Position numbers and translations under genes: made by a program. From assembly GCA_948099385.1 (NCBI GenBank), contig CANUEZ040000129.1:1488001-1552000 (forward strand): a stretch of 64,000 nt of DNA, written 5' to 3'. This stretch comes from Fasciola hepatica. Taxonomy: Eukaryota; Platyhelminthes; Trematoda; Plagiorchiida; Fasciolidae. Below the pieces are notes generated by a model, which had not been told where the DNA came from, did no database searches, and saw nothing but the letters and a program-made list of their open reading frames with translations. Below, piece by piece: positions 9,795 through 51,353 of this stretch. How positions within the stretch are numbered: the first letter of the stretch is position 1; every line of letters begins with the position of its first letter.

Positions 9795-9836
9795 TTTGCG
9801 TGATTTTTCCTCGTTCCAAATAGATGTATTGAGTAT

Positions 9837-10213: not shown

Positions 10214-10218
10214 CCATG
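10214..10218. repeat. Target-site duplication (right copy) of BEL-A1
   Basis: CCATG immediately after the LTR end, matching 3522-3526. Confidence 0.9.
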
Positions 10219-21935: not shown

Positions 21936-21962
21936 TGCTTGTGCAGTGCCAAGCAATGGATC

Positions 21963-22397
21963 AACGTGCAAGTGGTCCACTTAATACGAGCGAAACCGCG
22001 AGGTGGGGTCTAGAGACTTAACAATTGGTGAACCCGAAGTGATCCCTAGGTCACGTGAGTTTCCTTCTTTTCAACCGTCCAAGGTCCCGTTCGCGTACCT
22101 TTCTAGGCGTTTTATTATTTCCCTTTTTGTTGACGTTTTCGGTTGGTTTCCCAAACCGTTTTCTCCACCATGCATTTTTATGGTGTCTAGTTCGCCGCAA
22201 TTATTCTCTTAGATTGCATTGCCGAGTTGATCGTTGATTTCTTTTTCAGTCTTTATTCGACCAGTTATTCTCCAAGCTATGTCTGCTGAGCGGAATCCTC
22301 TCCCAGACCCCACGGCTGAGGCGACCACCCTTCAAAAGCGGGCTGGTGGTCCACGTTTCACGAAGGATCGAAGAACGTTCTACTGAGTTGAGGTTTT
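21963..22397 (+). mobile_element. Gypsy LTR end / primer site / gag start unit, copy 1
   Basis: About 435 bp nearly identical to 28281-28725 in the left palindrome arm. It contains the last roughly 60 bp of an LTR (ending CTTAACA), a primer-binding site TGGTGAACCCGAAGTGATC at 22026-22044, a leader of about 230 bp, and a gag start codon at 22279. The gag frame stops at TGA 22384-22386 after 35 codons. The primer site matches the 3' end of tRNA-Trp (TGGTGACCCCGACGTGAT as known in animals) at all but two positions, which points to a CsRn1-clade Ty3/gypsy element. Compared with the 28-kb copy it lacks 11 bases just after the gag stop. Confidence 0.7.
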
Positions 22398-25390: not shown

Positions 25391-26910
25391 TTAGTATCCA
25401 TCACTTTCCTCGTAAGCCCTATAAATATTCATATACGGAATAAAAGAATCCTCCAGTTCTTGGATGTCTAGCGCCAACAGTAGTCTAGACTTACATATGA
25501 TTGGTGAATCTGTGGCACGGGTAACATTTGAGAGTTTATTCCACAAAGTTGCATATTTATGGAGGAAGAAGTTTCGCTGTGCTGAGTTCCAAGATGTGAA
25601 GATCGCCATACGGTGTTCCCTATTGCGCACCTGATGCGTCGAGTTTATACTGAACTTTACTTCGCTAGAGGATACAGCTTGTTTTGTGAAGAAGTTTGGA
25701 AGAAATTCAAGGTTGAGTTTTATTGTCCTGAGTCACGGAGGGTCAGGCAGCAGGAGTGCACACCGCGGTCTATAACTGAGGTTCGCAGAAGGTCCAAACA
25801 GTGTTTTGGTAAATCGACGCTGTGCGTTTTCACCGTCGACAGCGTCACATTTGTGCATATTTGAGAACACAAGTGTGCCGTACTCTGGGGTTGGGCGAAC
25901 ATGAGTTTTGTACATTTCTAACTTACTGTCCGTGAGAAGGAAACTTCTCTGCAACAAGCCAAGAGACTTGTTTGCCCGTGCAGTTATGTAGAAAGCATGT
26001 TCAGGAAAATGAAAAGGGGAGGAATATTGTAGTCCGTGGTCCCGTATTGTTGGGGCATACTGGAGTAAGACAGCACTAATGTTAAGCGTATAATGAGAAA
26101 TTTTGCAGTTTAGCTTGAGATAACTGCTTTTGTTTGCTGAAAGTTCCATTGCCTGGCAACCACACAAAGAAGAAAGAGACTGTATGTAGACCATGATGTT
26201 ATTTAGTGCTGCAGGTAGGTTTCCTGGTTTAAACTAGCAGACTATCTTCAAGTCATCGGCAAATGGGGAAACTTCGCCACAAACGATGACATTGCAAATG
26301 TCATTTATATAAATTAAAAAAGCAGTGGTCCCAAAACACTTCCTTTGACAAACTTGCTGTTAACAGCCGGGCGGTCTGGCATCTGGCCGTTGAAGCAGGT
26401 AACTTGGTAAGGCTTGTAGGTGGGATTCAAACCAACTGAGTAGGGGGTTTACAATCTCTTGTCCTCTTATCTTGTTCAGCAAATTCAGACGCGAGATTCT
26501 GTAGAAGGCTTTTGTCATATCAAGGTAAATGATGACGAGAGCCACGTTTTTGTCCGCAGCTGTTGTTACCAGTTCGAATTGGCAGATTCAACACGAGCGT
26601 GATCTGAGAAATCCGTGCTGTCATAGGCTGATGAGATTATTTGCAAGAAGGTAGTCGGTCAGGTTGCATTTTACTGGTTTTCTAGCAGCCTTAAGATAAT
26701 TGGCGTATGATCAGTGGGGCGGTAGTTGGTAATGTCATGCACTGCGCTTATCTTATGCCTGGGGATGGTAATGGATTTCTTTCACTGGATATAGAAGACT
26801 CCGGTTAGGAGAAAGAGGCTGTAAAGCCTAAGTAGTAGGAGAGTAACATCCGGGCCACCAAGATCGAATACTGTCGATGATGGGCCTGCGGTACCGTGGA
26901 GGAAGAAACA
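25391..26910 (-). pseudogene. Second CR1/Jockey-like LINE RT remnant
   Basis: Minus-strand RT without its endonuclease. From 26.9 kb: FDLGGPDVTLLLLRLYSL, KKSITIPRHK with TNYRPTDHTPIILRLLEN (RT motifs 1/2, near 26.75 kb), IYLDMTKAFYRISRLNLL (motif A, near 26.52 kb), a GPLLFLIYIND-like motif B' split by frameshift near 26.32 kb, and FADD at 26252-26263 (motif C). The C-terminal domain runs 26194-25391 (YKTHVRPTPEYGTLVF and RNFFLHKYATLWNKLS). It is broken by frameshifts and stops. Its 5' side ends at about 26.91 kb, right where the large inverted repeat begins, so the palindrome junction probably truncated it. Confidence 0.8.
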
Positions 26911-26928
26911 CACGACCTCGATCGTGCT

Positions 26929-28725
26929 GGTATACGCTTGGACTCTTCGTCTACCTGTGGAGTCGGCAGCCCCCTCATCATCTGTGACTTTCAACCACGG
27001 CGACCATGCTCAGCGCTTTAAGCAGCACGTGTGAGTGCTCAAAGCCAGCCCACTAAGCCAACAGTGTGCAGGCTACCTTTAAGATGCGTGAGAAACTGCT
27101 ACCCACGTATTCCTTTTCGTTGACAGTGCTCGACAATCGCTACAATTGGTATACACTAGGCTGCTTCGTGCGATGGAGGGCAGAGCGAAAACGTTTGTCG
27201 CATACGTCAGCGGGCGACACCACACCTATCTACTGACCACTTCAAACCTGCCGTCATATAATGCCAGCCACCCGGCCAGTTTACACCTACTCAAGCAACT
27301 CAGTCACCCGCACTGAGCGGGTTATCACCGGGACCAGCCAAAAATTACGCCCAGTGAAAACCCGGAAATTAGTCCGTCAAAATCTCCAACCTTTCCCGCA
27401 ACTCGAAGTAGCCGTCGTGGTCGCCATCTACGAAGTCCCATCTGTTTCGCTAATTTTGTGACAATTTTTGCGACCGATTGTTAGCACTAAGTCGGAAAAA
27501 TTGGCATAGGTTTACCAATCGGAGTGCTCGAGAAATTAAAATCGGCAGCTGTAATTTCATTTCCTTCTGGTCATTTTGGAGACCGCGGCAACACCAAACA
27601 CCGTTTGTGTGTTGTTATTGCGGTACAATATCCGCCGGCACCCTCAGACACTACTTCCTTCCAGTTTGCCCTGCTCTCTCTCAGACGATCCACGTAGTCA
27701 TAATGGCTTCATCTGTAGGCTCGCTGGCTCCCATGTGCGTCCAAGGGGCCAACCATCCACTAGACTAAGGGATGAATAGTCAGTGCGGAGCTAGAGACAA
27801 CAACCGAATGCCTTTTCGGATGGACCTGAAGCGGTGTTTTCTGGCCCGCAAGCGTTTGAGACCCGTGGTAAATGAAGCGAAGTTGAGCCGACGCACATTG
27901 AACCTCGAAGGTGCGGGGGCCGTCCAACTCACCAGCAGTCGTTCGGAGCCACCAATACTACAGAGAGCAAGATACGAGGAGATCATGGACTACAAGCACT
28001 TCCGCTTTAACAACATTGTGGAGGCCCAAGCGCATCGGACTACTAGCAGGAGGGCTTTGCAGCAACAGCCATCTTGCTTCATGCTTTTATTACGCTTATT
28101 GCTGAACTGAACACCGACTGCCAAGTGTGGTCGCCATTAGACCGTTGCTATTGCACACACTCTCACGCACACTCTCAAATACGCGCTAACCCCTATCCCC
28201 ACCAATCGCCCCCTCATTCTCACGGTTCGTGGCGAATACCATTCTGATTAACGTTCTCGTACAGCGCCTAGCATTGGAGTAACGTGCAAGTGGTCCACTT
28301 AATACGAGCGAAACCGCGAGGTGGGGTCTAGAGACTTAACAATTGGTGAACCCGAAGTGATCCCTAGGTCACGTGAGTTTCCTTCTTTTCCACCGTCCGA
28401 GGTCCCGTTCGCGTACCTTTCTAGGCGTTTTATTATTTCCCTTTTTGTTGACGTTTTCGGTTGGTTTCCCAAACCGTTTTCTCCACCATGCATTTTTATG
28501 GTGTCTAGTTCGTCGCGATTATTCTCTTAGATTGCATTGCCGAGTTGATCGTTGATTTCTTTTTCAGTCTTTATTCGACCAGTTATTCTCCAAGCTATGT
28601 CTGCTGAGCGGAATCCTCTCCCAGACCCCACGGCTGAGGCGACCACCCTTCAAAAGCGGGCTGGTGGTCCACGTTTCACGAAGGATCGAAGAACGTTCTA
28701 CTGAGGACAGTGCGAGTTGAGGTTT
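26929..28725 (+). mobile_element. Ty3/gypsy remnant: integrase C-terminus - LTR - primer site - gag start
   Basis: Plus-strand order in the left arm. First comes the C-terminal part of a gypsy pol, ending in STDHFKPAVI near 27250, which fits the conserved SxDRLKPAH motif after integrase. Then an LTR whose start I could not fix and whose end is CTTAACA at 28341. The primer site TGGTGAACCCGAAGTGAT follows at 28344-28361, then a leader, and a gag ATG at 28597 with a TGA 35 codons later. Pol end, LTR and then primer site/gag is the junction of a tandem or one-LTR-circle arrangement, not of a simple insertion. The LTR region includes an unassigned 112-codon open frame (27772-28110). Confidence 0.65.
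28344..28361 (+). promoter_or_regulatory. Primer-binding site, tRNA-Trp-like
   Basis: TGGTGAACCCGAAGTGAT two bases after the LTR end CA. Two mismatches to the complement of animal tRNA-Trp 3' ends. The same site occurs at 22026 (plus) and at 44004-44021 (minus). Confidence 0.65.
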
Positions 28726-28799
28726 GGCGGCCTCAAAAAGGTTTACACGGTTTTGCCTGTACCTAATCAGTGATGTTTAGTGAGACTCAAATGATTAGA

Positions 28800-30013
28800 C
28801 AATCTCGATGTAATTAGAGGAGAGAGACCGAGTGGCGTGTCCCACTGAGAAAAGTTTGTCATTTACGCTAGCAAGGAACAGGAAAATCAAAAGGCGCCAC
28901 CCTGCATGACACCGATGAAGATCAGTGCGGGCTTACGGCAGTGAAAGCTTATTGAAAAAACTGGTAATTTTTTAGACAGGTGTGAAATGTGCCGAGGTAT
29001 TAAGGGCCTTTCTTGCCGGAGGAAAGGTTTTTGGTCAAAAGGTGAGGAGTAGTTCATTGTCAAAGGCCTCCGATGTATCCGTATGACGTACTCAAGCAGC
29101 TATGCCATTGTCCGCAATCTCAGTAAGGTGATACATGAAATCGGGTTGACATGCAGTGCAAAATCTTGAACGAAGAAGTTGTGCCCTCCGGTGCCAACAA
29201 GGTCAAATTTGAAGGAGGTTTTCAAAAAGCATATCATGATGATTTTTCTCATTACCCAGAGAAAAAAGGAATGTGATGAACTGGACGGTTCTTTGTCAAA
29301 ATATGCATAGGAACTTTTTCGTGGCCGAAGATCGAGACTGAGCACTTTCGGTTGGTTGGCCCAAGACTGAAGTTCACTGGTAGGGTAAAAATTTGAGCGA
29401 TAAGTGGGAAAAGTCATGTCCGGATTTAACTGTCACAGCAGGTGGCATATCATTTGTTTAAGAGTAAGTGGATGGCTGGAAAAATGTCAAAATGGGAAAG
29501 CTTCTGAAAAGTGAAGTTCCCCCACGGACAGAGCTGGAACAGTAACTTGAGGAAGAGGCTGAGGAGCCACATTATTGGTGTAAGCTGTGGTTGAGGTAAA
29601 GAATGAGCTTAAGTCCTCGGCAATAAGAGCGAGGGAAGGGCCGGACAGTCAGGAGAAATTACATCTAAGATATTACCACGAGAATCAGAAGCTTTAGCTT
29701 TGTGTAACAGTGACAGCCGAAGAAGCCGAAGTGGATGTCGCGGGGACTTTAGGTCTTTGTTACGCGGTTTAGTTTTTTTCAAGTCTCCGGGCAGTATCAG
29801 AAGCGTAAAAGTCGAATTTTGATCCTTGGGTAGTCGTGAATTTCTGAAGTCTAGCGTGTTTGTTTTACGGAGAAAGAATATTGGTCTTCCTATTATTCTG
29901 TTGCTGGGGGAGGCAGTGATTCTTCTCAAGACATCCGAAAAACTAGACTGAATATATTGGTAGCCTGTTATGAGCCGGCAGAGAGGAAAAAACCATTGCA
30001 ACACGATGGTCAA
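28800..30013 (-). pseudogene. LINE remnant 3 (left arm copy), RT region
   Basis: Minus-strand LINE ORF2 debris. A DTSEAFDNELLLT segment near 29075 fits RT motif A (D-x-S-K-A-F-D). About 150 bases further on, GVMQGGAF plus a broken FSCSLL fits motif B' (GVPQGSVLSPLLF). The upstream open stretch 30013-29609 (134 codons) is basic and unassigned. Frames shift between motifs and stops are frequent. An identical copy lies on the plus strand at 42352-43565 in the right arm. The family is uncertain (CR1/Jockey-like). Confidence 0.55.
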
Positions 30014-30370
30014 GTGGTTTTGAGGGAACTTTCAGTTACGAGAGAATTGGATATAATACCACTTGAACTGGCGGAGTTGAAGTTGGCCTTGCTGTTCGGT
30101 AGGTACGCGGACCACTCTGTTGCAGCGCTACTTTACCCGCACCGATTTTACAGTAACCTTCGTTTATTTCTATGGAATAAGCTGACTATCATTTTGTCAC
30201 ATCTGTATGACTTCATCAATTCATCCATATACTTGAACTCGTAGCTGGAATGCGGCCTTGAAGAGTCGGTAGGAAATGAGACGAAGAGAATTTCCGGAAA
30301 GCTAAACAAGCGTCGCCGTAGTCATCGAGCCGTTAGAAGAGTTGGACTAAGGAAGCAAGCTTTATCAAGA

Positions 30371-33370
30371 ATGTTCTGGGCAACTACTGCATGTCCCAGA
30401 ATTCGGCCACTGCTTGGCAGGTCGACCACGCTGAGTGACTTTGTCCATCAACGGGAGTGCAGTCAAATGAGTGTTACTTTCCTGCAAGAAACCTGGATCC
30501 ACGTTGATGTTTGCGATGGAGTTTTCACACTAGATGATTCTGATTCCTTTCACGTCGGCCGCCCGGTGCAGTACCACAAACGTGGGAAAGGCGCGGCTAC
30601 TTTATAAATGAACTATAGTGCAATGGGACGAAGAGCATTTCTACGTATCCTACACCTCGCATCAGCGCCTCCGTGCTAGGGTGTAAGCCTAAACGTCTGA
30701 GTGATCACACGTCTACAATTTATGTTCACATGTACATTCCCCCAACATGTTCTCTCTCTGCGCTGTATGAATTTTGTGATATTTTCTCCATAAATCTACT
30801 GAACCTTGCTGACTCTTTGTTATGCACTGTCTGCTGCAACTTTAACCGGCTCAAATTGGGGTTCCCTATATTCATTGGCCTGAAGAATATCGTTACCTCC
30901 CCCAACAGACTTGAAGCCACGCCGGGCTTTTGTGCTGCTATTAATCCTGACTTGTTTTATATTGCCTGTCGTCCTCCAATTGGCGATTCGGACCATGCGA
31001 TTTTGGAAGCTTCCTCAATGGTTTACTCTAAGAGTAGACACACACACTTCACTCAAAGACATGACCTTAAAATACATAGCCAAAGGTATCACCAAGAAAA
31101 CCCCAAGCGACTCAGAGATGTGGTTGACGATTCTGGCCTAAGCATATTTGCTCACTCCAGCCTTTTGTTGTTTTGTGAATATTTAACAACTACCTTTACC
31201 TCTGCTTTTATACCTTCTGTCCCATGAAAAAACTGTACATCCGACCCGACCGACACTCCGTCCCCATCTGAAACGATTGCGCCGTGTGAGGGGAAGCGCC
31301 TTCAAGGCCAAGGACCACGGTTCGGCGAGAATTCTACCAAAATCCATCGAAAATTAGCTTCATAGGCTAAACGCTTTGTTTGTTCAATCACTAATCTCCA
31401 GCGGCAACTGCAGAGAGACAAGGAAGACAACCATGCACCTAAGTTGTGCTAATCCCCGTAAACGTTCTCATTTAGCAGAATTTGACAAACTCGGTCGTCA
31501 ATTCACTGCCACGTCATACCTACCAGTCATCTCAAACCACAGTGCTGACTTCTGCCAGAGCCTTGTCATAGAAAGCATCATCTTGCAGTGACCTCGATCA
31601 TTCTCAGGAAGTGGCCGCTTCTCGGACGTCAGTTTGGATTTATTTTCTCTACGATCTCCTCTGACGTTTGACTTTGGCCTCACTGTTTTGTTCCGTTGCG
31701 TACGCTTAACCAGACTGACTTCTCCGAGGTTTGCATCGACCTTGTCTCTGAATCACTTTCACATTCGGTTCTTCGCCGACGGCACACGCTCGTGGTTCGC
31801 TCTCTTCCTGGCCGTTGATTCCGTAATTTCAGTGTATTTCTCGTATCGGTACTGTTTCGGTGGTGATACATAGAATAAACTTTCGCATCTTTCCGCCGGC
31901 TCGTGTCTTCTATATTCGTTAGACAGAAGGTTTTTTTTGATACTTCGCTGTGAGGTCGGTTAGGAAACACGTTCGTAGGCCTCGCTCGAGCGCCTTTTAT
32001 GACCTCACTGGAAGTATACAAGAAGTTCACTCACCTCCATACAGGCGAGGGAAGTGGCTCAGACTGCTCACAACCAATCCTGCTGGAGGGATGCGCAAGC
32101 ACTTTATCCCCCTTACTTCTTGGTCTATTCAATCTATGCCTAAGCCTTAACGTTATTCCCAATCGCTAAAAAGTGGCTTCTGCCATCCCAGTATCGGTTG
32201 CGCTTAGGGTGTTTGAAAAGGCCACGTCAAAGAGACTGTCTGCTCATATCAATGTGCTGGACTCCAAGAAATCTGCAAATCGCCGATAACGATCTGCCCT
32301 CGATGCCTTGGCCTCACTCATCCATTCTTTTCGTCATCTGTCGATCGCAAAGCCAAAAGTAGGGTCAGTTCCTTTGGGTACAGTGGCACACTCAATTGTG
32401 TTGATAGGTCAGAATCGCTCCATGTACCTTCTGACCCAAGCTCCACTATCTCCGGCATTATTCTCCTGTCCAATTCCTTTTCCGATCGACGACAATTCAC
32501 GTGATGTTATGGCCGAACGTCTTCCATGCTCCCCCCTAAACAAGGCGTTCTCCAGGGCGCAAACCTGTCATCATTTTTGTTTTCTGCTCACAAACATCCA
32601 TGCCTGTTTGAGACGACTATCTCCTTGATAAATACGCTGATGATATGGTTTTTGGAATGCCGAACTTAAACAGCCCCGCACTCACCCTTCTACAACAGAG
32701 AGTAAAAGAGCTCGTCAACTGGTCTTCAGGCGGAAAACTAAGGATCGATCCCACAAAGTGCCCCGACATCCCGCTCAGTCTCCACAAAATCCATTACCAC
32801 TCCAACCTGATGGTATGAAACCCAGTGGAGAACCACTACAAAAGGTATCGTCTTTAAATCACCTCGGTGATACCATTATTCGCAACCTTACCTGAACAGA
32901 TCACGTCGCAGCTATCTTTCCCAAATTTTCGGCGACTCACATTTTACTTGATACGAATCGGGTCATTTTCTTCCTCATTTCATCAAATAAGATGCTTTGT
33001 ATTTTCTTGAATCCTTTTGCACTGGCTCTGTCTCCCCCCCGTCACATTTCCCAGACTGTTCTCGAAAGATTTTGGGATTCTCATCGGGCTTGTTAACCAC
33101 TCGTCTTGGCATAGCGGCGTCACTTACTACTCACCTATTCAATTTATCACAACCCAGCATCACAAGGTATGTCTGATGTTTTCCCGTGGGATCACGGAAG
33201 GCAGCACACACCCCCTCATTCAAACCCTAGCAATTGCAAATCCACGTCTGTCACTCGATTGCGACGAAAATATCCGTTTGTTTGCACTACAGCGTGCAGG
33301 TCCCAGTAGTTCCTTACCTCGCCCGTTTCCCCACCAACCCAAATATAATCACTATCGACTTCCTTAACCC
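30371..33370 (+). pseudogene. CR1/Jockey-like LINE 4 ORF2 (left arm copy)
   Basis: Plus-strand ORF2 remnant with domains in order. Endonuclease: MSVTFLQETWIH near 30475, a YIPPTCSL segment near 30735, CNFNRL near 30840, and PIGDSDHAIL near 30980 (the family SDH motif). RT: KYADDMVFGMP with the catalytic YADD at 32633-32644, followed by KELVNWSSGGKLRIDPTKC. C-terminal domain: SQLSFPNFRRLTFYLIRI near 32910, then FPRLFSKDFGILI, and FITTQHHKVCLMFSRGI near 33150-33200. Many stops and frame changes. Length (about 3 kb) is close to a full ORF2. Mirror copy at 38996-41994. Confidence 0.8.
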
Positions 33371-33584
33371 GCTCCGCTAAATGTTTTTCTCCCTTTATCA
33401 TGTTGCCGCTTTTCTCGATTGATACATTTTGAGGTGAAGCGGCCATCCAGCAGCTGACTGTTCACCCTCAGGTGCATAGAGCACATACTTGGCTCGGCTT
33501 CAACTTGGGCTGCAGGTTGGTGAAAATTCGGTGAATAACCATGCTGTAATCGGTATCAGCGAAGTTATGGGAGATTGAAACGAC

Positions 33585-34899
33585 TGCGCGAGACGCGCAA
33601 CGAGTTTAAAGGCTTCGGGAGCGTCTACTGTCTCAGTTGTGAAAGGATGTTAAACGTAGCGTCAGCTTCACCGAATCGTTAGCATGACGCCTAGCAACCG
33701 GGCTAATTATAGTTTCGGAAGGCTCGCCGACTGGCTGACATCTTTTCATATGCTCGAGTTCAAGAAGAGCTGTACTCCGCCTTGTGTCCATAAGCTTCAT
33801 GACCCTCTTCTTCGACTCATTGGGATGAGATCCGTGTTCAAAGGATATTCCCCCTGGAGGTAACCACAGCCGATGCTATATCTCCAGCACTATAAAAATT
33901 AACACAAAACTCACCATTATAGGGCCTCACAATGCCTCAGAGTTGTCGGAGGTGGGCATCCCAGACTCCGAGTCGGCCAATCCCGACGAAAGCCCCTCAA
34001 AATACTCAAAACACCGTGCGTCTGTCATGGCCCTTTAAGGGGAAGTCCTACTTGATTCCTTCTCGTGACGGCATTTTACAAAATTCAGGGGTGAAGGTGA
34101 CTTACCGGCGCCCTCCACTGGGTTAACCGATCAATAGCAAATTTACTGGAGATGAAAAACCCTGGTTCCGGGTCAACCGTAGGTGGGGTGCGGAGCGTAC
34201 TACGGCATGCTCACCGTTATTTTTGGCCTAAGGAGTGACCCTGGAACCCGCGATATCTAGCCTCATCCGAAGGGCGCGTAAACTGAACAATCAATCACCG
34301 GCTTCCGGAGTTCCTAGAAAAAGCGGGTGAACTACACCATTGGATACCTGATCATCAGGAACAACCGTGTTACCTTGCGGGATGAGCCCGACTGAGTAGG
34401 AGTCAGAGGTGCACTCCCGAATAAAATTGTCTGCCCTGGACCGGGTGGCAGGTGGTAAAGCAACCGGCAACGTAAGCGACCTCGACAGAATCCGCCGCCG
34501 TGACGGACTGCTCTTCCCAGCGCTCTAGCGATCACTCTTCTACGTAATTTACAGTATGTTCCCCTGCCTACCCTCTTTTCCACTTTTCATATCTATTGCC
34601 ACACCGTACGGGCTCCCTGGCCGGACGACTTGCTGCTGTGCTACACCCGAGGATCCTGGTTATATTCTCTCTTGCCCTTCTTTGATTGGCTTTCAGGTAC
34701 CACCGAACTCGCTACCGCCAGCTAATGCCCCGTTTCATCCTCACCCCCCACGTTTGTTTTGTTAACCTTTATATCCACAAGAAAACAGCTGAGTTCAGCT
34801 CGCAAACTTGAATCTTTTACTGTTGATGTTACATACTGGAGACCCGCCTTCAAGTTTCCAGTTCCATCACTCGACCAAACCCACTATCAGATCTTTCAT
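33585..34899. other. Palindrome spacer, left part; no gene recognised
   Basis: Unique DNA between the arms. No domain is visible; it may include the decayed 5' part of the RTE-like LINE that becomes readable from about 35.5 kb. Confidence 0.4.
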
Positions 34900-35499
34900 T
34901 GAAGCTTCACTTGAGCCCCCCTGGGGCACCAAAGCTGCGGCCTCTTGTTTTGTTGGCTTTGGAAGTGATCCTAGCGAAAGAGCCAGGCGGCGCTGTTGGA
35001 CTAGATCGTAGTTGCTGGCCGTTTATGCGCGGTGAGACTCAGGGGTACGTGCAACATGAGCAGTCCTCCTCCCGGTGGACGCAAAGTATTCATCGCTTCG
35101 GCAAATGAGCCTAGGCCAGATGCAGTGGTAACCTTTATCAAAAGTCCCACGTCTTCCACGAGAAAGGCCTGGTCTTTATCGTGATTTCGAAGGGAGATCT
35201 GAATGTTAGATGTGATCGGATGTCATACACAAAGGAGCACTTAAGGACTTTCTTTAGACTAGGACCTTGTCTCTCGAAAAACGGGGAAGAAGTTTCGGCC
35301 TTGCGCACGGACCGTCGCCCACTCCTCACCACTGTGAATCGCAGCTGATTAGAGAACTTTGTACTCTACTCTCAAAAGTTTGGAATCACGAGCAGGTTTC
35401 CTGAACTTAGGGGGAAATGAATGTTGCCCCCACCTTTAAGAAGGGCTCATGCGGTGGAACTGCCAACCGCAGTCGTGCAAGAACCATCCCAACAGCGCA

Positions 35500-36740
35500 G
35501 AAGTTGTCTGCCTTAGCCACACTTCTTAGGTCGTATCAGAGGCCTGATTGAGAAACTTGGGAGAAGCAAGCTGGGTTTCTGCCGGTCGTGGATGTATCAA
35601 CCAAGTGTTCAACCTCCGACAACCTCTAGAGGAAAGTGGCTTTTTCCAACAGCCAACAACCACCACGTTTCTAAACACATTCACGGTCTTTGACTCTGTC
35701 GACAGGACTGCGCTGTGAAAATGTTTGTTGAGAAGTGGAGAACTGAGCAGTGGGTGACAATTCTTAAAAAAGTGATTCTCCAAAATCCAGGTCGGGCTAG
35801 GTTCGGCGGCCAGCTTTTTCCCCTTTTGCCGCCTACAAGGGAGAGTGACAGAATTGCCTTTACCCTCATTTCTCTCGAGCTTTAACACGAAGACGTATAA
35901 TATATACTGTTTCCTTACAGAAGGAGTTTAACTCCTCCAAGAGAACCGAGTTTTCGACTTGGAACATGTATATGATATCGCCTCGATGAGTAGCCATTCA
36001 AAAGCAACACAACGCCTTTGGGATCTCCCGGCGATGGAAGTGTCCACAGTTGGAATGCACCACGCTGCTTCTGACTGCGAAATGCACCTGCAAGATTGGC
36101 CGGAGCCTGAGCCTATAATCACCTTTTAATATGCTCAGCTCGAGTTATTCGGTTATCTTAAGCACCTTGGGTGTGTGATAAAGGCCGGTGGTGTTGAAGA
36201 GATCCGTTTACGAAAAGCAGGGACTCAAGCTTCTTTCGCAAACGTGCGACAACGTGGCAACCGTCTTTTGCGTAAGAGACGAGCATATCTCGCCATGGTT
36301 CGTGGTGTTTAACCTTGTTGTAGAAAGACCCGGCCACTTCGTGCTGAGAAAGCTCGGCCTCCCTCTCTGTTCCCGACCGACGTCCCCGAAAAGTTTCTCG
36401 CTCCCAGTAGGAACATTGGGTTAGTATTACCGAAGTTTGCAGTGGGGTTTTTGGAACGGATTGCTCTCTCCCAAACAAACAAATTGCCTAACACTGCCTC
36501 CTGTGGCTTAGTCGGGCTTGGCGAGTGCCTTTTCCAGAGCTCAGTTTTCTGTGCTCCATTCACACCTGTCTGGCAAGGCTGGAAGGAGCATCGCTGCGGC
36601 TGAGTCGCGAGCTGGCATGGAAGTATGAAAAATAGGGGTGAAGTCCTCTTGTTTCACAAGATCCCTGCTTCTTCTTTTTGGCCTTTCCAATGAGTTATCT
36701 TGCCAAGGTTCGTCTTCAGTACGGCCAGTCACAGGAATCG
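35500..36740 (+). pseudogene. RTE-like LINE RT remnant in palindrome spacer
   Basis: Plus-strand RT of an RTE-type non-LTR element. AGRGCINQVFNLRQ starts at 35581 and matches the RTE motif GRGCxDQIFxLR. QQPTTTTFLNTFTVFDSVDR follows (motif A region, usually FxDFxxAFDSVDR; here the first aspartate is replaced by N). Downstream, GYLKHLGCVIKAGGVEEI near 36145 and the arginine-rich block ending in LRAEKARPPSLF match the thumb/C-terminal region (YLGSxISxxGG, CETWPLRAEDxRRLSVF). A tail reading WQGWKEHRCG near 36570 fits the end of the protein. It is frameshifted and interrupted. This is the only recognisable element unique to the spacer. Confidence 0.75.
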
Positions 36741-38780
36741 CAATTCGAGCAACTTGTGTCTAATTAATAAGAGTCGCGAACCACAGCCTGATTGATTAGT
36801 AAATTTTAACGTTGATAAACAGGAAAATCACGAAGCCTGAGATTATATAAAAACCTCAGGTATGCAGCCAAGTCGGTATCTCAGTAAAACCAAGGGGTTT
36901 AGTGCACAATGCTTCCGGCATGTCAATAAGAACGGTTCGGGGCCAAATACAAATGAGTGAAAGACAAACAAACATGTTAACTTGGTACTCACAGAGATTC
37001 CCAGTAAAGTAATGATGAAAGCAGAGAAATTCACAGAACATGTAGAAAAATTGAAAAGGTTTTCAACGGTTATCCTCCATCACTGGTGCAGATGGTGTTT
37101 GATTGGCCGCCGGCGCTGAGAAAAGTGATCAATTTTACCGTTGCTGTCTAGCTAGGCTTGCTCGCTTTGTCACATGCGGTTCATGTCTCAGGGCCGTGGC
37201 AGCTCCATTTGAAGTCCGATGTAGCCTGTCTTCCCCAGCGCACCCGTGGCATGTGGTCCTCGTTCTGGTCGCATTATGGCAGTGTGCCGCTGCCAACCTG
37301 CCAGGGTAGCCCAAGTTCAGACTTGAAGATGGAAGTTTTAGGTCACTGAAGTGAAAAATAATACCCAGTTGGGCCTCAAGTGTGGTGGCTGTTTTCCGAT
37401 CAAAATCGATGAAAGCAGTAGGAAGTAGCTGCCATCTTTGTCTCGTTGGTCCATTGTGGGCTTTTATATTTTCACAAGAGGCAGTACGCCTGGGGCACTG
37501 GTCATGAAAAACAATGTGAGCGGGTAGGTACATCCCAGGTACTGCGTCTGAACCACAAACCCCCCGCTTTGCGCAAAATAACCGTCGATTTTATCGGTGG
37601 TTTATGTTCATACTTCATGTTAGTGTTTCTATCATTCAAACCTATCAGAACTTTGTTACCTAAATATTTTAGGCCACTTGAGCGGTTGCATCTGTTTAAT
37701 AAAAAACCCTGAAAAACTGATGATGCACTCGGACTTAAAGCAAACCCACGTTGTCGATTCGCGTAGTATTACGCTGCGTCTGTGGGCACAAGTGGGCGAT
37801 GAACTGCCTCGCACTATTGAGTCCTGCGGTAAACTTCAGACAGAACTGAAGTCCTTGGATAGTTCACGGATATGAGGCTTGAGTTTAGACGCCCCCTAAC
37901 TGAAAGCCGAGAGAATTTCCCGGGGTTTCATGGCTCACGGTGCTCCGCAAGATAGTTACGGTCTGTAGATTCGAAGGTTGGTCAGCCCTAACAGAAGTGG
38001 AGTCATAGAACTTCGTCTCCCCATTTGTTGTAGTAGTTCAGCTAGCTTTACGCATTTCAGAAACTTCAGCTATTTTTTGGTTCAATTTTTACCTCTGGTA
38101 ACGAGTGTTCACTGAGGTCAGCCTAAGGAAATCTGCTGCTAAGAACGTACTGTAAAAATCTGACAATATTTTGTCCAAATGAGATGCCGCATTGGCCGAA
38201 TCTATCCTTCTACCTGCGCTTTTGTGGTGAGTTTCAACCAAGCAAAAACCCAACTTCGTCATGGCTGAGTTCCTTAGGAAGCAAACTGCGCAGACCGGCA
38301 CGTTTGTTAGGATCGGTGTCGTTTGGCGAATCTACGTCTCCTACTGGAGGCTCAGCAACTATGGAGGTTTTATTTACTTCAGTGATTAGGCCTACGTACA
38401 TGGGACGGCCAGATGAAGAGGGGGTCATTAGGCAGCCAGTAAGCAGAACGTTGCTACGACCACACTCCAGAAACATCGGCTTGATACTATTGCCGACCCT
38501 GTTTGGCTTCATGTCTACCCTTCTGACCCCCAGATTCATGTTTCTGCGTTAACAGCTCAGAACTTCTGCATTTGAGCACATCTTCTTGCCTCCGTGTAAT
38601 GCAACTGTCATTGCCCATGGCTTAGGCTTATCCAAGGTATTGCGTATTTCCTAACCTGCACCCGCTAACCTTTTACCCTTCGAGCTGAATCCTGAGACAA
38701 GAGGGTCGGTAAAGCTAGCCAGCTTTATTACGTTGAAAATTGCGTTTGAGATTGATTTTAACCGCGGCATGCCCCGCACT
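36741..38780. other. Palindrome spacer, right part; no gene recognised
   Basis: Open stretches of about 100-130 codons (for example 37533-37135 minus; 38184-38552 plus overlapped by 38539-38234 minus) show no motif I can name and overlap each other, so none is called as a gene. Confidence 0.4.
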
Positions 38781-38995
38781 GTCGTTTCAATCTCCCATAA
38801 CTTCGCTGATACCGATTACAGCATGGTTATTCACCGAATTTTCACCAACCTGCAGCCCAAGTTGAAGCCGAGCCAAGTATGTGCTCTATGCACCTGAGGG
38901 TGAACAGTCAGCTGCTGGATGGCCGCTTCACCTCAAAATGTATCAATCGAGAAAAGCGGCAACATGATAAAGGGAGAAAAACATTTAGCGGAGCG

Positions 38996-41994
38996 GGTTA
39001 AGGAAGTCGATAGTGATTATATTTGGGTTGGTGGGGAAACGGGCGAGGTAAGGAACTACTGGGACCTGCACGCTGTAGTGCAAACAAACGGATATTTTCG
39101 TCGCAATCGAGTGACAGACGTGGATTTGCAATTGCTAGGGTTTGAATGAGGGGGTGTGTGCTGCCTTCCGTGATCCCACGGGAAAACATCAGACATACCT
39201 TGTGATGCTGGGTTGTGATAAATTGAATAGGTGAGTAGTAAGTGACGCCGCTATGCCAAGACGAGTGGTTAACAAGCCCGATGAGAATCCCAAAATCTTT
39301 CGAGAACAGTCTGGGAAATGTGACGGGGGGGAGACAGAGCCAGTGCAAAAGGATTCAAGAAAATACAAAGCATCTTATTTGATGAAATGAGGAAGAAAAT
39401 GACCCGATTCGTATCAAGTAAAATGTGAGTCGCCGAAAATTTGGGAAAGATAGCTGCGACGTGATCTGTTCAGGTAAGGTTGCGAATAATGGTATCACCG
39501 AGGTGATTTAAAGACGATACCTTTTGTAGTGGTTCTCCACTGGGTTTCATACCATCAGGTTGGAGTGGTAATGGATTTTGTGGAGACTGAGCGGGATGTC
39601 GGGGCACTTTGTGGGATCGATCCTTAGTTTTCCGCCTGAAGACCAGTTGACGAGCTCTTTTACTCTCTGTTGTAGAAGGGTGAGTGCGGGGCTGTTTAAG
39701 TTCGGCATTCCAAAAACCATATCATCAGCGTATTTATCAAGGAGATAGTCGTCTCAAACAGGCATGGATGTTTGTGAGCAGAAAACAAAAATGATGACAG
39801 GTTTGCGCCCTGGAGAACGCCTTGTTTAGGGGGGAGCATGGAAGACGTTCGGCCATAACATCACGTGAATTGTCGTCGATCGGAAAAGGAATTGGACAGG
39901 AGAATAATGCCGGAGATAGTGGAGCTTGGGTCAGAAGGTACATGGAGCGATTCTGACCTATCAACACAATTGAGTGTGCCACTGTACCCAAAGGAACTGA
40001 CCCTACTTTTGGCTTTGCGATCGACAGATGACGAAAAGAATGGATGAGTGAGGCCAAGGCATCGAGGGCAGATCGTTATCGGCGATTTGCAGATTTCTTG
40101 GAGTCCAGCACATTGATATGAGCAGACAGTCTCTTTGACGTGGCCTTTTCAAACACCCTAAGCGCAACCGATACTGGGATGGCAGAAGCCACTTTTTAGC
40201 GATTGGGAATAACGTTAAGGCTTAGGCATAGATTGAATAGACCAAGAAGTAAGGGGGATAAAGTGCTTGCGCATCCCTCCAGCAGGATTGGTTGTGAGCA
40301 GTCTGAGCCACTTCCCTCGCCTGTATGGAGGTGAGTGAACTTCTTGTATACTTCCAGTGAGGTCATAAAAGGCGCTCGAGCGAGGCCTACGAACGTGTTT
40401 CCTAACCGACCTCACAGCGAAGTATCAAAAAAAACCTTCTGTCTAACGAATATAGAAGACACGAGCCGGCGGAAAGATGCGAAAGTTTATTCTATGTATC
40501 ACCACCGAAACAGTACCGATACGAGAAATACACTGAAATTACGGAATCAACGGCCAGGAAGAGAGCGAACCACGAGCGTGTGCCGTCGGCGAAGAACCGA
40601 ATGTGAAAGTGATTCAGAGACAAGGTCGATGCAAACCTCGGAGAAGTCAGTCTGGTTAAGCGTACGCAACGGAACAAAACAGTGAGGCCAAAGTCAAACG
40701 TCAGAGGAGATCGTAGAGAAAATAAATCCAAACTGACGTCCGAGAAGCGGCCACTTCCTGAGAATGATCGAGGTCACTGCAAGATGATGCTTTCTATGAC
40801 AAGGCTCTGGCAGAAGTCAGCACTGTGGTTTGAGATGACTGGTAGGTATGACGTGGCAGTGAATTGACGACCGAGTTTGTCAAATTCTGCTAAATGAGAA
40901 CGTTTACGGGGATTAGCACAACTTAGGTGCATGGTTGTCTTCCTTGTCTCTCTGCAGTTGCCGCTGGAGATTAGTGATTGAACAAACAAAGCGTTTAGCC
41001 TATGAAGCTAATTTTCGATGGATTTTGGTAGAATTCTCGCCGAACCGTGGTCCTTGGCCTTGAAGGCGCTTCCCCTCACACGGCGCAATCGTTTCAGATG
41101 GGGACGGAGTGTCGGTCGGGTCGGATGTACAGTTTTTTCATGGGACAGAAGGTATAAAAGCAGAGGTAAAGGTATTTGTTAAATATTCACAAAACAACAA
41201 AAGGCTGGAGTGAGCAAATATGCTTAGGCCAGAATCGTCAACCACATCTCTGAGTCGCTTGGGGTTTTCTTGGTGATACCTTTGGCTATGTATTTTAAGG
41301 TCATGTCTTTGAGTGAAGTGTGTGTGTCTACTCTTAGAGTAAACCATTGAGGAAGCTTCCAAAATCGCATGGTCCGAATCGCCAATTGGAGGACGACAGG
41401 CAATATAAAACAAGTCAGGATTAATAGCAGCACAAAAGCCCGGCGTGGCTTCAAGTCTGTTGGGGGAGGTAACGATATTCTTCAGGCCAATGAATATAGG
41501 GAACCCCAATTTGAGCCGGTTAAAGTTGCAGCAGACAGTGCATAACAAAGAGTCAGCAAGGTTCAGTAGATTTATGGAGAAAATATCACAAAATTCATAC
41601 AGCGCAGAGAGAGAACATGTTGGGGGAATGTACATGTGAACATAAATTGTAGACGTGTGATCACTCAGACGTTTAGGCTTACACCCTAGCACGGAGGCGC
41701 TGATGCGAGGTGTAGGATACGTAGAAATGCTCTTCGTCCCATTGCACTATAGTTCATTTATAAAGTAGCCGCGCCTTTCCCACGTTTGTGGTACTGCACC
41801 GGGCGGCCGACGTGAAAGGAATCAGAATCATCTAGTGTGAAAACTCCATCGCAAACATCAACGTGGATCCAGGTTTCTTGCAGGAAAGTAACACTCATTT
41901 GACTGCACTCCCGTTGATGGACAAAGTCACTCAGCGTGGTCGACCTGCCAAGCAGTGGCCGAATTCTGGGACATGCAGTAGTTGCCCAGAACAT
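38996..41994 (-). pseudogene. CR1/Jockey-like LINE 4 ORF2 (right arm copy)
   Basis: Mirror of 30371-33370, same endonuclease, YADD (39721-39732) and C-terminal segments and the same stops. One visible amino-acid difference in the endonuclease part (T to N, from the base change paired with 31190). Confidence 0.8.
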
Positions 41995-42351
41995 TCTTGA
42001 TAAAGCTTGCTTCCTTAGTCCAACTCTTCTAACGGCTCGATGACTACGGCGACGCTTGTTTAGCTTTCCGGAAATTCTCTTCGTCTCATTTCCTACCGAC
42101 TCTTCAAGGCCGCATTCCAGCTACGAGTTCAAGTATATGGATGAATTGATGAAGTCATACAGATGTGACAAAATGATAGTCAGCTTATTCCATAGAAATA
42201 AACGAAGGTTACTGTAAAATCGGTGCGGGTAAAGTAGCGCTGCAACAGAGTGGTCCGCGTACCTACCGAACAGCAAGGCCAACTTCAACTCCGCCAGTTC
42301 AAGTGGTATTATATCCAATTCTCTCGTAACTGAAAGTTCCCTCAAAACCAC

Positions 42352-43565
42352 TTGACCATCGTGTTGCAATGGTTTTTTCCTCTCTGCCGGCTCATAACAG
42401 GCTACCAATATATTCAGTCTAGTTTTTCGGATGTCTTGAGAAGAATCACTGCCTCCCCCAGCAACAGAATAATAGGAAGACCAATATTCTTTCTCCGTAA
42501 AACAAACACGCTAGACTTCAGAAATTCACGACTACCCAAGGATCAAAATTCGACTTTTACGCTTCTGATACTGCCCGGAGACTTGAAAAAAACTAAACCG
42601 CGTAACAAAGACCTAAAGTCCCCGCGACATCCACTTCGGCTTCTTCGGCTGTCACTGTTACACAAAGCTAAAGCTTCTGATTCTCGTGGTAATATCTTAG
42701 ATGTAATTTCTCCTGACTGTCCGGCCCTTCCCTCGCTCTTATTGCCGAGGACTTAAGCTCATTCTTTACCTCAACCACAGCTTACACCAATAATGTGGCT
42801 CCTCAGCCTCTTCCTCAAGTTACTGTTCCAGCTCTGTCCGTGGGGGAACTTCACTTTTCAGAAGCTTTCCCATTTTGACATTTTTCCAGCCATCCACTTA
42901 CTCTTAAACAAATGATATGCCACCTGCTGTGACAGTTAAATCCGGACATGACTTTTCCCACTTATCGCTCAAATTTTTACCCTACCAGTGAACTTCAGTC
43001 TTGGGCCAACCAACCGAAAGTGCTCAGTCTCGATCTTCGGCCACGAAAAAGTTCCTATGCATATTTTGACAAAGAACCGTCCAGTTCATCACATTCCTTT
43101 TTTCTCTGGGTAATGAGAAAAATCATCATGATATGCTTTTTGAAAACCTCCTTCAAATTTGACCTTGTTGGCACCGGAGGGCACAACTTCTTCGTTCAAG
43201 ATTTTGCACTGCATGTCAACCCGATTTCATGTATCACCTTACTGAGATTGCGGACAATGGCATAGCTGCTTGAGTACGTCATACGGATACATCGGAGGCC
43301 TTTGACAATGAACTACTCCTCACCTTTTGACCAAAAACCTTTCCTCCGGCAAGAAAGGCCCTTAATACCTCGGCACATTTCACACCTGTCTAAAAAATTA
43401 CCAGTTTTTTCAATAAGCTTTCACTGCCGTAAGCCCGCACTGATCTTCATCGGTGTCATGCAGGGTGGCGCCTTTTGATTTTCCTGTTCCTTGCTAGCGT
43501 AAATGACAAACTTTTCTCAGTGGGACACGCCACTCGGTCTCTCTCCTCTAATTGCATCGAGATTG
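42352..43565 (+). pseudogene. LINE remnant 3 (right arm copy), RT region
   Basis: Mirror of 28800-30013, with motif A-like DTSEAFDNELLLT near 43290 and motif B'-like GVMQGGAF near 43455. It starts about 360 bp from LINE 4 and points away from it. Confidence 0.55.
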
Positions 43566-43639
43566 TCTAATCATTTGAGTCTCACTAAACATCACTGATT
43601 AGGTACAGGCAAAACCGTGTAAACCTTTTTGAGGCCGCC

Positions 43640-45900
43640 AAACCTCAACTCGCACTGTCCTCAGTAGAACGTTCTTCGATCCTTCGTGAAACGTGGACCA
43701 CCAGCCCGCTTTTGAAGGGTGGTCGCCTCAGCCGTGGGGTCTGGGAGAGGATTCCGCTCAGCAGACATAGCTTGGAGAATAACTGGTCGAATAAAGACTG
43801 AAAAAGAAATCAACGATCAACTCGGCAATGCAATCTAAGAGAATAATCGCGACGAACTAGACACCATAAAAATGCATGGTGGAGAAAACGGTTTGGGAAA
43901 CCAACCGAAAACGTCAACAAAAAGGGAAATAATAAAACGCCTAGAAAGGTACGCGAACGGGACCTCGGACGGTGGAAAAGAAGGAAACTCACGTGACCTA
44001 GGGATCACTTCGGGTTCACCAATTGTTAAGTCTCTAGACCCCACCTCGCGGTTTCGCTCGTATTAAGTGGACCACTTGCACGTTACTCCAATGCTAGGCG
44101 CTGTACGAGAACGTTAATCAGAATGGTATTCACCACGAACCGTGAGAATGAGGGGGCGATTGGTGGGGATAGGGGTTAGCGCGTATTTGAGAGTGTGCGT
44201 GAGAGTGTGTGCAATAGCAACGGTCTAATGGCGACCACACTTGGCAGTCGGTGTTCAGTTCAGCAATAAGCGTAATAAAAGCATGAAGCAAGATGGCTGT
44301 TGCTGCAAAGCCCTCCTGCTAGTAGTCCGATGCGCTTGGGCCTCCACAATGTTGTTAAAGCGGAAGTGCTTGTAGTCCATGATCTCCTCGTATCTTGCTC
44401 TCTGTAGTATTGGTGGCTCCGAACGACTGCTGGTGAGTTGGACGGCCCCCGCACCTTCGAGGTTCAATGTGCGTCGGCTCAACTTCGCTTCATTTACCAC
44501 GGGTCTCAAACGCTTGCGGGCCAGAAAACACCGCTTCAGGTCCATCCGAAAAGGCATTCGGTTGTTGTCTCTAGCTCCGCACTGACTATTCATCCCTTAG
44601 TCTAGTGGATGGTTGGCCCCTTGGACGCACATGGGAGCCAGCGAGCCTACAGATGAAGCCATTATGACTGCGTGGATCGTCTGAGAGAGAGCAGGGCAAA
44701 CTGGAAGGAAGTAGTGTCTGAGGGTGCCGGCGGATATTGTACCGCAATAACAACACACAAACGGTGTTTGGTGTTGCCGCGGTCTCCAAAATGACCAGAA
44801 GGAAATGAAATTACAGCTGCCGATTTTAATTTCTCGAGCACTCCGATTGGTAAACCTATGCCAATTTTTCCGACTTAGTGCTAACAATCGGTCGCAAAAA
44901 TTGTCACAAAATTAGCGAAACAGATGGGACTTCGTAGATGGCGACCACGACGGCTACTTCGAGTTGCGGGAAAGGTTGGAGATTTTGACGGACTAATTTC
45001 CGGGTTTTCACTGGGCGTAATTTTTGGCTGGTCCCGGTGATAACCCGCTCAGTGCGGGTGACTGAGTTGCTTGAGTAGGTGTAAACTGGCCGGGTGGCTG
45101 GCATTATATGACGGCAGGTTTGAAGTGGTCAGTAGATAGGTGTGGTGTCGCCCGCTGACGTATGCGACAAACGTTTTCGCTCTGCCCTCCATCGCACGAA
45201 GCAGCCTAGTGTATACCAATTGTAGCGATTGTCGAGCACTGTCAACGAAAAGGAATACGTGGGTAGCAGTTTCTCACGCATCTTAAAGGTAGCCTGCACA
45301 CTGTTGGCTTAGTGGGCTGGCTTTGAGCACTCACACGTGCTGCTTAAAGCGCTGAGCATGGTCGCCGTGGTTGAAAGTCACAGATGATGAGGGGGCTGCC
45401 GACTCCACAGGTAGACGAAGAGTCCAAGCGTATACCGGTACGACCGAGATCGGGCACTACGCAGGCTTAGTGGTGCGAATGGCAGATTTTCACCCCGAGG
45501 TTGGTTACCGTTCGCCCGAACGAAAAAGCTTATTGATACACCTTGCGTGGGGATGGGAGATTGTCGGTTCATTGTGCTGGCAACCGGGCTTAGCGAGAAG
45601 GCTGTCAAAAGCGCCCTCAAAATAAGGACCATTATAGTTCGTCGCTATCGGCGGGGCAACCAAACTGATTAATCCGACAGGCCAGAAGGACCTTTGTGGC
45701 ACCCTCCGGTGCGGGACGAAGGATAGTAATGGCCTGCATGTAACGGGTGAAGCGATCCACGCAAGTGAGTATGTAGAAGCACCCAAGTGAAGGTGGCGGT
45801 TTTACTACCGTGTTGACGCGTATGCCTTCGCTACCTGTTCCGGGCCGTGAGAGCCTGGCTAAGGCCGATGTGGTGTTACAGGGATGATGCACAAATACAA
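43640..45900 (-). mobile_element. Ty3/gypsy remnant spanning right arm and flank
   Basis: Minus-strand gypsy element. The flank part (45900-45437) holds the integrase core: CVDRFTRYMQAITI near 45770, a GCPADSD / TNYNGPYFEGAFDSLLAK pair joined by a frameshift near 45650, then GCQHNEPTISHPHA. The position of the catalytic glutamate reads CINKLFRS instead of the usual MVERFHR, so it is inactive. It continues without a break into the arm: pol end, LTR (end at 44024), primer site 44004-44021 and gag start at 43768. The clade is probably CsRn1-like from the tRNA-Trp-type primer site. Confidence 0.7.
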
Positions 45901-46690: not shown

Positions 46691-49600
46691 TCAGATAGCC
46701 CCCCGCACTGGTGAGAGAGATACGGCAGCCGGCAGGGCATTTTTCGTATGCCATAAACCGGGGTTTGTTTCTGCAGCTCTTCCCTGTTCAAGTTTGGTGC
46801 CAATGCTGCAGTTCCCGTTGAGCGCCCACGAAGCTCGACCCATTGTCGGAGTAAATATCTGCCGGTATACCTCCTCGGTTGATAGAGCTTTGCAAGACCC
46901 GGGCAAGGAGTCGGTCGTCATCGAATGCGCAACTTCCAAGTTCACCGCGCGTGACTTCTTCCACTTCATTATACACCGGTATAGTTTGTCCGGCCTTTTC
47001 CCACACTTGATCCACAAGGGCCCGAAATGGTCCAACCCGGTGTTGCTGAACGGCCAATAGCCCGGAGTCACTCTACACTCTGGTTGCGGAGCCGTGTGTT
47101 GTTTGCCCGCCGTGGTATTGCGCCTCCTACAATGTACACAAAGCCGGATTACGCGTTTTACAATCGCCCTTGACCTCGGTGACCAAAAGAGCTTTCGAAT
47201 GACGCTCCTCACGTGATCTTCCCAGGTATGTCTCTCTGCGGCGTGAAGGTGTTGGATCATTAGCCCTATCACAGGTTGTCGAGCCGGCGGAAGTATGGGA
47301 TATTTCGTGTCAAAGCTCTGGTGGGAATAGGCCAGCTAACTACTATCCGTAGTTATCCATTACTGAGATTGGGTTTTGAAAGCTTCAAGTTTCCTTTCAT
47401 AGATGATGTTCTTTCGTCGATTGGTCCCACCTCCGGCCCTCTCGAATTGTCAGGTGAAAGCCTGCCGTAGTATCATCTTGAATAAACTGTGTTCTGCGGC
47501 TCGTAACTCACCAGGGCTCATTAGGCCCAATCGTACATGGCCGGAGGGGTGGATCCCTTTCATGACTAGCAAACGTCTGTTAAACTTGGCTAACCACACT
47601 TATGACCCAATTGTCTTCATCCAGGAGGAAAGCTGACCAATCGTGACGAAATGAATGCCGGTTCAGCGACTGTCGCCGTCATCACCGCGCTTTTGACCTT
47701 TAGTTCCAATTCCAGAGGGGATTTTAGTTCGTACACAAGCCAGTCCTGTTTAGGCATTTGCAGGAACTTCGGTCCTCCCGTCCACGTGTCGGGTTGCCGG
47801 AAGTCGGTCGCACCTCGGGAGCACAGATCTGCTGGGTTATCGCCAGACCTGACTTGTTTCCACTAGTTCATAGCCACTTAGTCATGGATGATCGTGAGTC
47901 GGTTAGCGACGAACGTACTCAATCGGCTCCTGATGTTGGAAATGCAGTACAGTACTACCGTTGAGTCCGTCCAAAAACTAGCCGACCAAATGTAGTGGCC
48001 GAAACATCTCTTTACCGCTTGTACCGCCCCGACCGCTAACATGGCTGCACTGAGTTCAAAGCGCGGGATTGGAACCGACTTCAGTGGGGCGACGCGGGCT
48101 TTGGCGAACAGGATCCTCGTAGTGTATTTCCCATCCCCCGTGCACCACCGTCCGTACACCACGGCTTCGTAACGGACTTTGGATGCGTCAGAAGAGGCAT
48201 GTAGTTCTCCCGTCCGTGTTGTGCGACCAAGGGACAAATATCATGGAATCCTTATGTTACCTAGTTTCTTTAAGGTGTTCAGAAATTCCTCCCAGTCCAA
48301 GCGGTCTTCTCGGTGCAGTGGCTGGTCCCAATCGATCTTCTGACGGCCGAGCCGCTGCAGCAGGATCTTTCCGGGCAACAGCCAGGGAGAGACGGGTCCA
48401 AGCAGGTCGAACAAACTAGAGACGGCAGAAAGTTTACCACGACGGGTTACTGGCAGCTCGGGAATGTTTAGCTCGAAAACAAAATCGTCCGTTCCTGCGT
48501 TCCATCGTGATCCTGGAGTGCGTCCGATAGGGAGTGGAGGGCCGTCCAGATCTCGAAAGCTTTTTGCCCCCTGGTGGTGCGCAATGACTTCGAGCACTTC
48601 CAAAGCGTTCGAAATCCATTTCGTGGGATGGAAACCGCCCCCTTCTGTCAATTCTTCTAGGCCTCTGAACTGTGTTAGGGCCGAGTCTACATCATCGCAT
48701 GACCCAAGATTGTCGTCCACTTGGAAGTTTCTGATGACCCTATCTACTACCTACCGGTTACCCAAACTCCATGTTTGTTTGCTGATTCTCTAAGGGCGTA
48801 GTTTGCACAAAACGGTAATGACATTGCTTTAAAGAAGGGGACGGTAATTCTATAATTTGTCACGGCTTTGTTCACCTTGTCCTCTTCTCACTACAGGAAA
48901 CCCAAAGCCTCTGGTTTTTATGCCGGTATTTTCACCTCATGAAACCTTTCCCTGATGTCGGTTGACAAGGCGAATCTGCGAAACCCAAAAAGGCATAAAA
49001 CTTCAGTTAGCAGCGTGGTCCGGTCGGGCCCTAGTAGTAATCAATCATTCAACGACTTGCCCTGGAACTTGACTGCACATTCAAAAGCCACCATCAGATT
49101 CCCGGGTCTCTTGTAGGGGAGAACCGGGTGGTGAGGTAGACACTGGATCCCCTTTTAGCTGCAAGTAATTGCAGGCACCTTTTCAAAGTAGCCAAAAGCT
49201 TTGTTTCGCGTCATAACTCTTGCGAATAGTTTCCGCAGATCCTTATTTCGAAAGGGGAGTTTTTTTTAATCGCAGTAGTCTTTCCAGGGCAAAGATTCTG
49301 TTATCAACGCAAGGGTCAGCTGGTGTGCGCCATGGAAGGGGAACCTCGAACTGACCTTTGAGGCCCTTGGTTCCCTGCAGCACCGTTTGAAGAGTGAAGT
49401 GGTCCTCTTGAGGCATTTATAGTCTTCCGTCTCCAATTTCATGAAACTCCATTTCATACAGCTGCTGCAACTGACGCCATATGCAGTCCGTCTTTGCTGA
49501 TACAGAATTTGTGAAAACCGCGTCCCCCCACTGGACTTCGTGACATCCATCTTAGCGCTGTGCGTACGGCAAAGGGTGCCTAATGGTTGCCCACTCTCTG

Positions 49601-51316: not shown

Positions 51317-51353
51317 GTTGCATATATACTCGTTTCAGTTTATTGAACCGAGC

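Follow-up and report, generated by a model that had tools for sequence, protein, structure and literature searches.

A 6.66-kb near-identical inverted repeat of transposon-derived DNA in Fasciola hepatica whose arms may be kept alike by gene conversion

Inverted repeats whose arms are kept alike by gene conversion are already known as a kind. The accessible part of a study of Caenorhabditis describes long near-perfect inverted repeats that are likewise local. Their arms are far more alike than their age should allow, for which arm-to-arm conversion was proposed; they contain gene pairs, and their age is proven by comparison of three species (PMC1803023). By contrast, the repeat described here, IR1, holds dead transposons, has longer arms, and its age is argued from its edges in one genome. 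The human Y palindrome P6, according to the accessible portion of its description, likewise has arms more than 99.9% alike around a unique spacer, with multi-kilobase conversion tracts, inferred up to 9 kb, and rare inversion of the spacer (PMC3723533). P6 is a sex-chromosome palindrome with much longer arms, described from population data, whereas IR1 shows no sign of a sex chromosome and is known from one assembly. A literature search, outside whose reach most subscription papers lay, showed no paper on conversion-kept inverted repeats in flatworms among the entries listed, and neither 'segmental' nor 'inver' occurs in the main text of the Fasciola gigantica genome paper, as far as that text was accessible (PMC8519440).

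IR1 lies within a 64-kb stretch of the F. hepatica assembly (C129:1488001-1552000), analysed as a whole and called the window hereafter. Aligned to each other, its arms are 99.94% identical over 6656 bases, with four mismatches (27695 T/C, 28233 C/T, 28811 T/C and 31190 C/A) and no indel, a match of such length that chance is excluded. Beyond the arms similarity drops to background, short decayed tails excepted (Table 1). An earlier, sequence-only reading of the window had the arm coordinates, the four substitutions and the absence of a length difference exactly right, and the spacer that it put at 5.2 kb measures 5196 bases. IR1 thus has two near-identical inverted arms and a unique spacer, whose edges are unique in the assembly. 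GC-biased arms are a usual, not a defining, trait of conversion-maintained inverted repeats; since the GC content of the IR1 arm (47.2%) is not raised above that of the spacer (48.5%), we saw no sign of GC-biased conversion. IR1 is real in sequence and ordinary in content.

Table 1. Features of the inverted repeats, in window numbering (position 1 is the first base of the window).
Feature	Position	Strand	Description
IR1 left arm	26929-33584	+	6656 bases
IR1 right arm	38781-45436	-	reverse complement of left arm, 4 substitutions
IR1 spacer	33585-38780	.	5196 bases; edges unique; includes an old dispersed repeat with copies elsewhere about 65-72% alike
Left outer tail	26884-26928	+	diverged gypsy integrase sequence (45 bases) that extends the arm
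Right outer tail	45437-45876	-	diverged gypsy integrase sequence (440 bases) that extends the arm
Left inner tail	33585-33610	+	possible weak decayed homology to right inner tail
Right inner tail	38756-38780	-	counterpart of 33585-33610
Gypsy remnant, left arm	26929-28330	+	runs from integrase end to LTR; other copies about 75% identical; relative L004 has Pfam rve and RNaseH
Gypsy remnant, right arm	44035-45436	-	mirror of left-arm gypsy remnant
450-base repeat	28256-28705	+	97.6% to window 21938-22387; mirrored at 43660-44109
Second dispersed family, inner arm end	32800-33506	+	mirrored in right arm; stops about 78 bases short of inner edge; traced leftwards as far as 32800
IR2 left arm	51413-52248	+	836 bases; starts inside 5' LTR region of a BEL copy
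IR2 right arm	52972-53807	-	4 substitutions from left arm; spacer 723 bases
IR3 left arm, in-window part	63636-64000	+	whole arms 63636-64208 and 64643-65215

Near-identical repeats longer than reads are a known source of assembly error, and misassembly was one of three options, beside recent duplication and conversion, that the sequence-only reading had left standing. Such an artefact, with one real arm placed twice or the wrong repeats joined, is improbable. Four differences distinguish the arms, the spacer differs as do both flanks, and the window contains no N. A fold-back read error would extend into mirrored flank, and none is seen. Moreover, the inverted repeats in the assembly span differing divergences, from 1 difference in 3433 bases to 6 in 573.

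The arms had been described as old, stop-riddled transposons, which holds for the outer 1.4 kb of gypsy sequence and for the second family at the inner end (69-79%), but not for the 450-base repeat, which is younger, as its 97.6% identity to the copy at 21938-22387 indicates. We searched the assembly (1.4998 Gb, 656 contigs) with pieces of the arm, scoring the best 40 candidates per list. A 2-kb outer-arm query returned both arms and then 39 matches at 70-76% identity, with one exception at 98%, which is the 450-base repeat also found inside the window; an inner-end query returned both arms and then the second family at 69-79%. Among the matches listed, both tested pieces are near-identical solely at the IR1 locus, and the arm as a unit appears to be local and two-copy as far as these queries reach, which cover the arm on either side of 28720-32790. 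The reading frames of the arm and spacer gave no Pfam family at E<=0.001 (best E 0.01 or worse, which is chance level) and, read through stops, none at E<=0.1. Elsewhere in the window, the two halves of a repeat of about 850 bases (21536-22387) recur apart at 96-98% identity (1301-1694 and 28256-28705), and gypsy relatives align across parts of it.

These contents bear on whether IR1 could be a single 18.5-kb transposon with 6.66-kb terminal inverted repeats, of fold-back or Polinton type. Size and layout fit, and many genomic copies begin at arm base 1-2, which had pointed to an element bounded by long terminal repeats. Of six copies examined, however, five continue past the right edge into the flank, which led us to reject that candidate, and the sixth is cut by a BEL insertion. 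Polinton/Maverick elements carry polymerase B, integrase and ATPase genes, and no Pfam family at E<=0.001 came up in the arm or spacer frames of IR1. With neither target-site duplications nor terminal motifs at the arm ends, and with both tested arm pieces near-identical nowhere else among the matches listed, a single transposon is extremely unlikely. The sequence-only reading, too, had noted no transposon terminus there.

At the outer edge, the step in identity at 26929/45436 sits within homologous gypsy sequence whose outer parts have diverged independently on the two sides. Five of the six gypsy loci examined align along the right arm and across its edge to 45796; the same five align along the left arm and then merely 45 bases past the edge, to 26884, and the sixth locus is interrupted by the BEL insertion. 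Profile matches place the gypsy remnants at 45876-44035 and 26884-28330. We aligned both outer flanks with the five gypsy family members. In the 52 columns outside the edge, all sequences are alike in 20, the left flank follows the family and the right does not in 16, the reverse holds in 6, left and right agree with each other but not with the family in 6, and all differ in 4. These columns overstate the number of events: 13 of the 16 are gap columns of one right-side deletion, 2 of the 6 right-like-family columns are one left-side deletion, and 2 of the 6 shared non-family columns are gap columns. By the same alignment, 81 of the first 100 columns inside the arm edge are alike, the 19 differences from the family are all shared by the two arms, and none is private. 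Independent events in the outer tails are thus few, but they run in both directions, and private losses both ways imply that neither tail was copied from the other. The tails therefore seem to have separated well before the arms last became identical. Their homology is supported by a transition-aware anchored score matched by 4 of 12,000 random inverted pairs and 0 of 3,000 shuffles, by a plain gapped score with 0 of 400 null alignments as good, and by an ungapped test (P=1.9e-4 by shuffle).

Old homologous tails disfavour a clean young inverted duplication in unrelated DNA, or a staggered-break inversion with duplicated flanks, in which the arms would differ through time only. Four evenly placed substitutions are what such a duplication would leave. 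If the arms had only mutated since they were last identical, four differences would correspond to about 37,000 generations (10,000-95,000) at 8.1e-9 per base per generation, a regression estimate for Schistosoma given in the accessible part of the source (PMC4754680). Since the outer edge does not lie in unrelated DNA, and both flanks are homologous gypsy sequence with private losses, we regard this origin as very improbable.

At the inner edge the signal is weaker. A transition-aware anchored alignment of the inner flanks extends over about 26 bases with a score of 6.89, which 14 of 12,000 random inverted pairs and 7 of 3,000 shuffles matched; these values are somewhat flattered, the score having been picked after the tail mismatches were seen to be mostly transitions. 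The plain gapped score gave P=0.01; without gaps, the plain test gave P=0.12 against shuffles and 0.039 against random positions. Decayed homology beyond the inner edge of IR1 is thus suggestive only. No family helps to judge this edge, because neither inner query has a family match near it: the right inner flank had two hits, one on itself and one of 96 bases on the opposite arm, and of the 38 other listed matches of the left inner query none comes closer to the edge than query base 416.

Other inverted repeats of the genome offer a comparison. In the 264-kb tract formed by the window and 200 kb of surrounding sequence, three local inverted repeats, all of at least 98.95% identity, are not attributable to pairs of transposon copies: IR1, IR2 and IR3 (573-base arms, 6 differences, spacer of 434 bases). 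The other local inverted pairs in the tract (at least 300 bases and at least 90% identity) are 346-394 bases long and look like copies of dispersed elements, pairs at 74-85% apparently being mostly BEL against BEL; direct pairs are mostly LTR-like and 4-6 kb apart, with a 400-base satellite in addition. Two of the six gypsy loci, chosen for their known inverted pairs and thus giving no rate, contain further examples. The repeat at L012 is at least 3433 bases long, with 1 difference and a 2420-base spacer, and that at L013 at least 4570 bases, with 11 differences (two gap columns counted) and a 418-base spacer; both run to the end of the fetched stretch.

In several of these repeats the differences crowd towards the inner edge: 9 of 11 fall in the last 35 bases at L013, 4 of 6 in the last 38 at IR3 and 3 of 4 in the last 154 at IR2, and the only one at L012 lies 11 bases from the edge. 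A pooled test of edge crowding (IR1, IR2, IR3 and L012) gave P=0.0001. Weak inner tails were scored at IR2 and IR3 (31 and 43 of 12,000 random pairs as good), neither of which has an outer tail by the transition-aware score; plain gapped scores for IR2 gave 1.0 at the outer and 0.09 at the inner edge. Past the inner edges of L012 and L013 there is no tail (446 of 1,500 null alignments as good).

We favour, by a modest measure, the reading of IR1 as an older inverted duplication, formed locally from transposon-derived DNA, with arms that gene conversion between them has re-homogenised. We prefer it because several repeats show old homology or a crowding of differences at their inner edges, and of the three options left by the sequence-only reading it is the one that the edge evidence favours. 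Pairing of the two arms, in one chromatid or across sister chromatids, would let one be copied onto the other, in one long event or several. Conversion would halt a few tens of bases before the homology ends, leaving the tails to keep diverging, and if the pairing intermediate underwent a crossover, the spacer would be inverted. Conversion explains the identity step inside old homology, the decayed tails and the near-identical cores of several repeats. Counting against it, the left outer tail is just 45 bases long and the independent events are few; the gypsy pieces on the two sides may have been inserted separately. The inner tail gives a weak signal, the four differences of IR1 lie off the edges, IR2 and IR3 lack an outer tail, and L012 and L013 an inner one. 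At IR1's own inner edge, the case for conversion appears thin.

The main rival, which we hold possible though doubtful, is that the inverted duplication is recent and was primed by homology. A DNA end broken within the left gypsy piece would have annealed to or invaded the inverted right copy, about 6.66 kb of the right locus would have been copied, and the left locus would have been rejoined at a short imperfect match, making the left arm the new copy. The outer edge does lie in inverted diverged gypsy sequence on both sides, with 440 bases of it on the right against 45 on the left, and priming accounts for all four arm differences being off the edges. In yeast, widely spaced inverted repeats can pair in single-stranded DNA even at up to about 25% divergence and initiate inverted duplications by fold-back, according to the accessible part of that work (PMC10164571), and inverted copies likewise start the inverted copy number variants attributed to ODIRA, as far as its accessible description goes (PMC10766186). 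Both mechanisms make new copies or triplications, and in these descriptions neither predicts decayed tails at the inner edge. Yet decayed homology is weakly seen there at IR1, IR2 and IR3, and the crowding of differences just inside the inner edge of L013, IR3 and L012 is likewise unpredicted by priming.

Local duplication is common in this genome. Inverted near pairs (at most 10 kb apart) numbered two (C23, C12), none and two (C83, C175) among the best matches listed for three queries (39 besides the two arms, 40, and 39 others), with a chance expectation of about 0.016 over all three. Direct near pairs were equally many among the matches listed (C105; C168 and C147; C35), so that the three queries, with the best 40 candidates each, show no excess of inverted over direct pairs; a further direct pair, on C107, is 19 kb apart. 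The spacing on C168 and C35 appears to be about that of LTR-sharing tandems. The inverted pairs on C83 and C175 are BEL pairs (C83:3782034-3790188 and C175:688419-696716), known by coordinates, whose near-equal scores suggest near identity.

The surroundings of IR1 are decayed retroelements: BEL, gypsy and a probable LINE. The BEL sequence in the window matches Pfam Peptidase_A17, Integrase_H2C2 and DUF5641, and its polyprotein frame is 96% identical to a F. hepatica protein over 37% of the query; the gypsy relative L004 matches RNaseH, Integrase_H2C2 and rve. The probable LINE has a reverse transcriptase match below the curated cut-off and no protein relative at E<=0.001 among 294 candidates. 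A BEL/Pao retrotransposon at 3527-10215, with pol frames on the minus strand and few stops, has 381-base LTRs (3527-3907 and 9837-10215) that are 97.1% alike; the LTRs of two near copies on C129 (window coordinates -60933 to -54233 and 104170-110855) are 100% alike. A second BEL copy occupies 46744-51677, and IR2 starts within its 5' LTR region; a third BEL-like fragment, on the plus strand (about 53808-54399), starts just where the right arm of IR2 ends on its outer side, as if cut there. Two proteins labelled Streptococcus dysgalactiae (P0001 and P0004) are BEL polyproteins, 52-54% identical to the fluke BEL, and are probably animal DNA in a bacterial assembly. The window contains no RNA families, tRNAs or tandem arrays, and the junction pattern had no match in viral contigs. 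Outside the window, C129:1643629-1652000 (window numbering 155629-164000) holds a tandem array of units of about 400 bases, about 98% alike, reaching the end of the stretch, and 6422-9901 of C64:6243000-6252900 is a tandem repeat of units of about 1 kb, its copies about 99% alike, adjoining a gypsy element.

Considering three repeats in 264 kb, two sequenced elsewhere and two known by coordinates only, we tentatively raise, as a less likely proposition than conversion at IR1 itself, that they belong to a class spread across the genome: local inverted repeats of up to several kilobases, packed with dead transposons, in which conversion holds the arms nearly identical and decay is confined to the final tens of bases at the edges. 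Repeats so alike are usually taken for recent duplications and dated accordingly; if the arms are old and kept by conversion, such dates are wrong here, the ages of the transposons inside are reset and the spacers are expected to flip. Gene-free arms would allow conversion rate, tract length and edge decay to be measured without selection on function and, the fluke being a hermaphrodite animal, in a setting that is not a Y chromosome. Such a class in a fluke would be notable and, if real, would make conversion between inverted copies a strong and general force on ordinary animal chromosomes.
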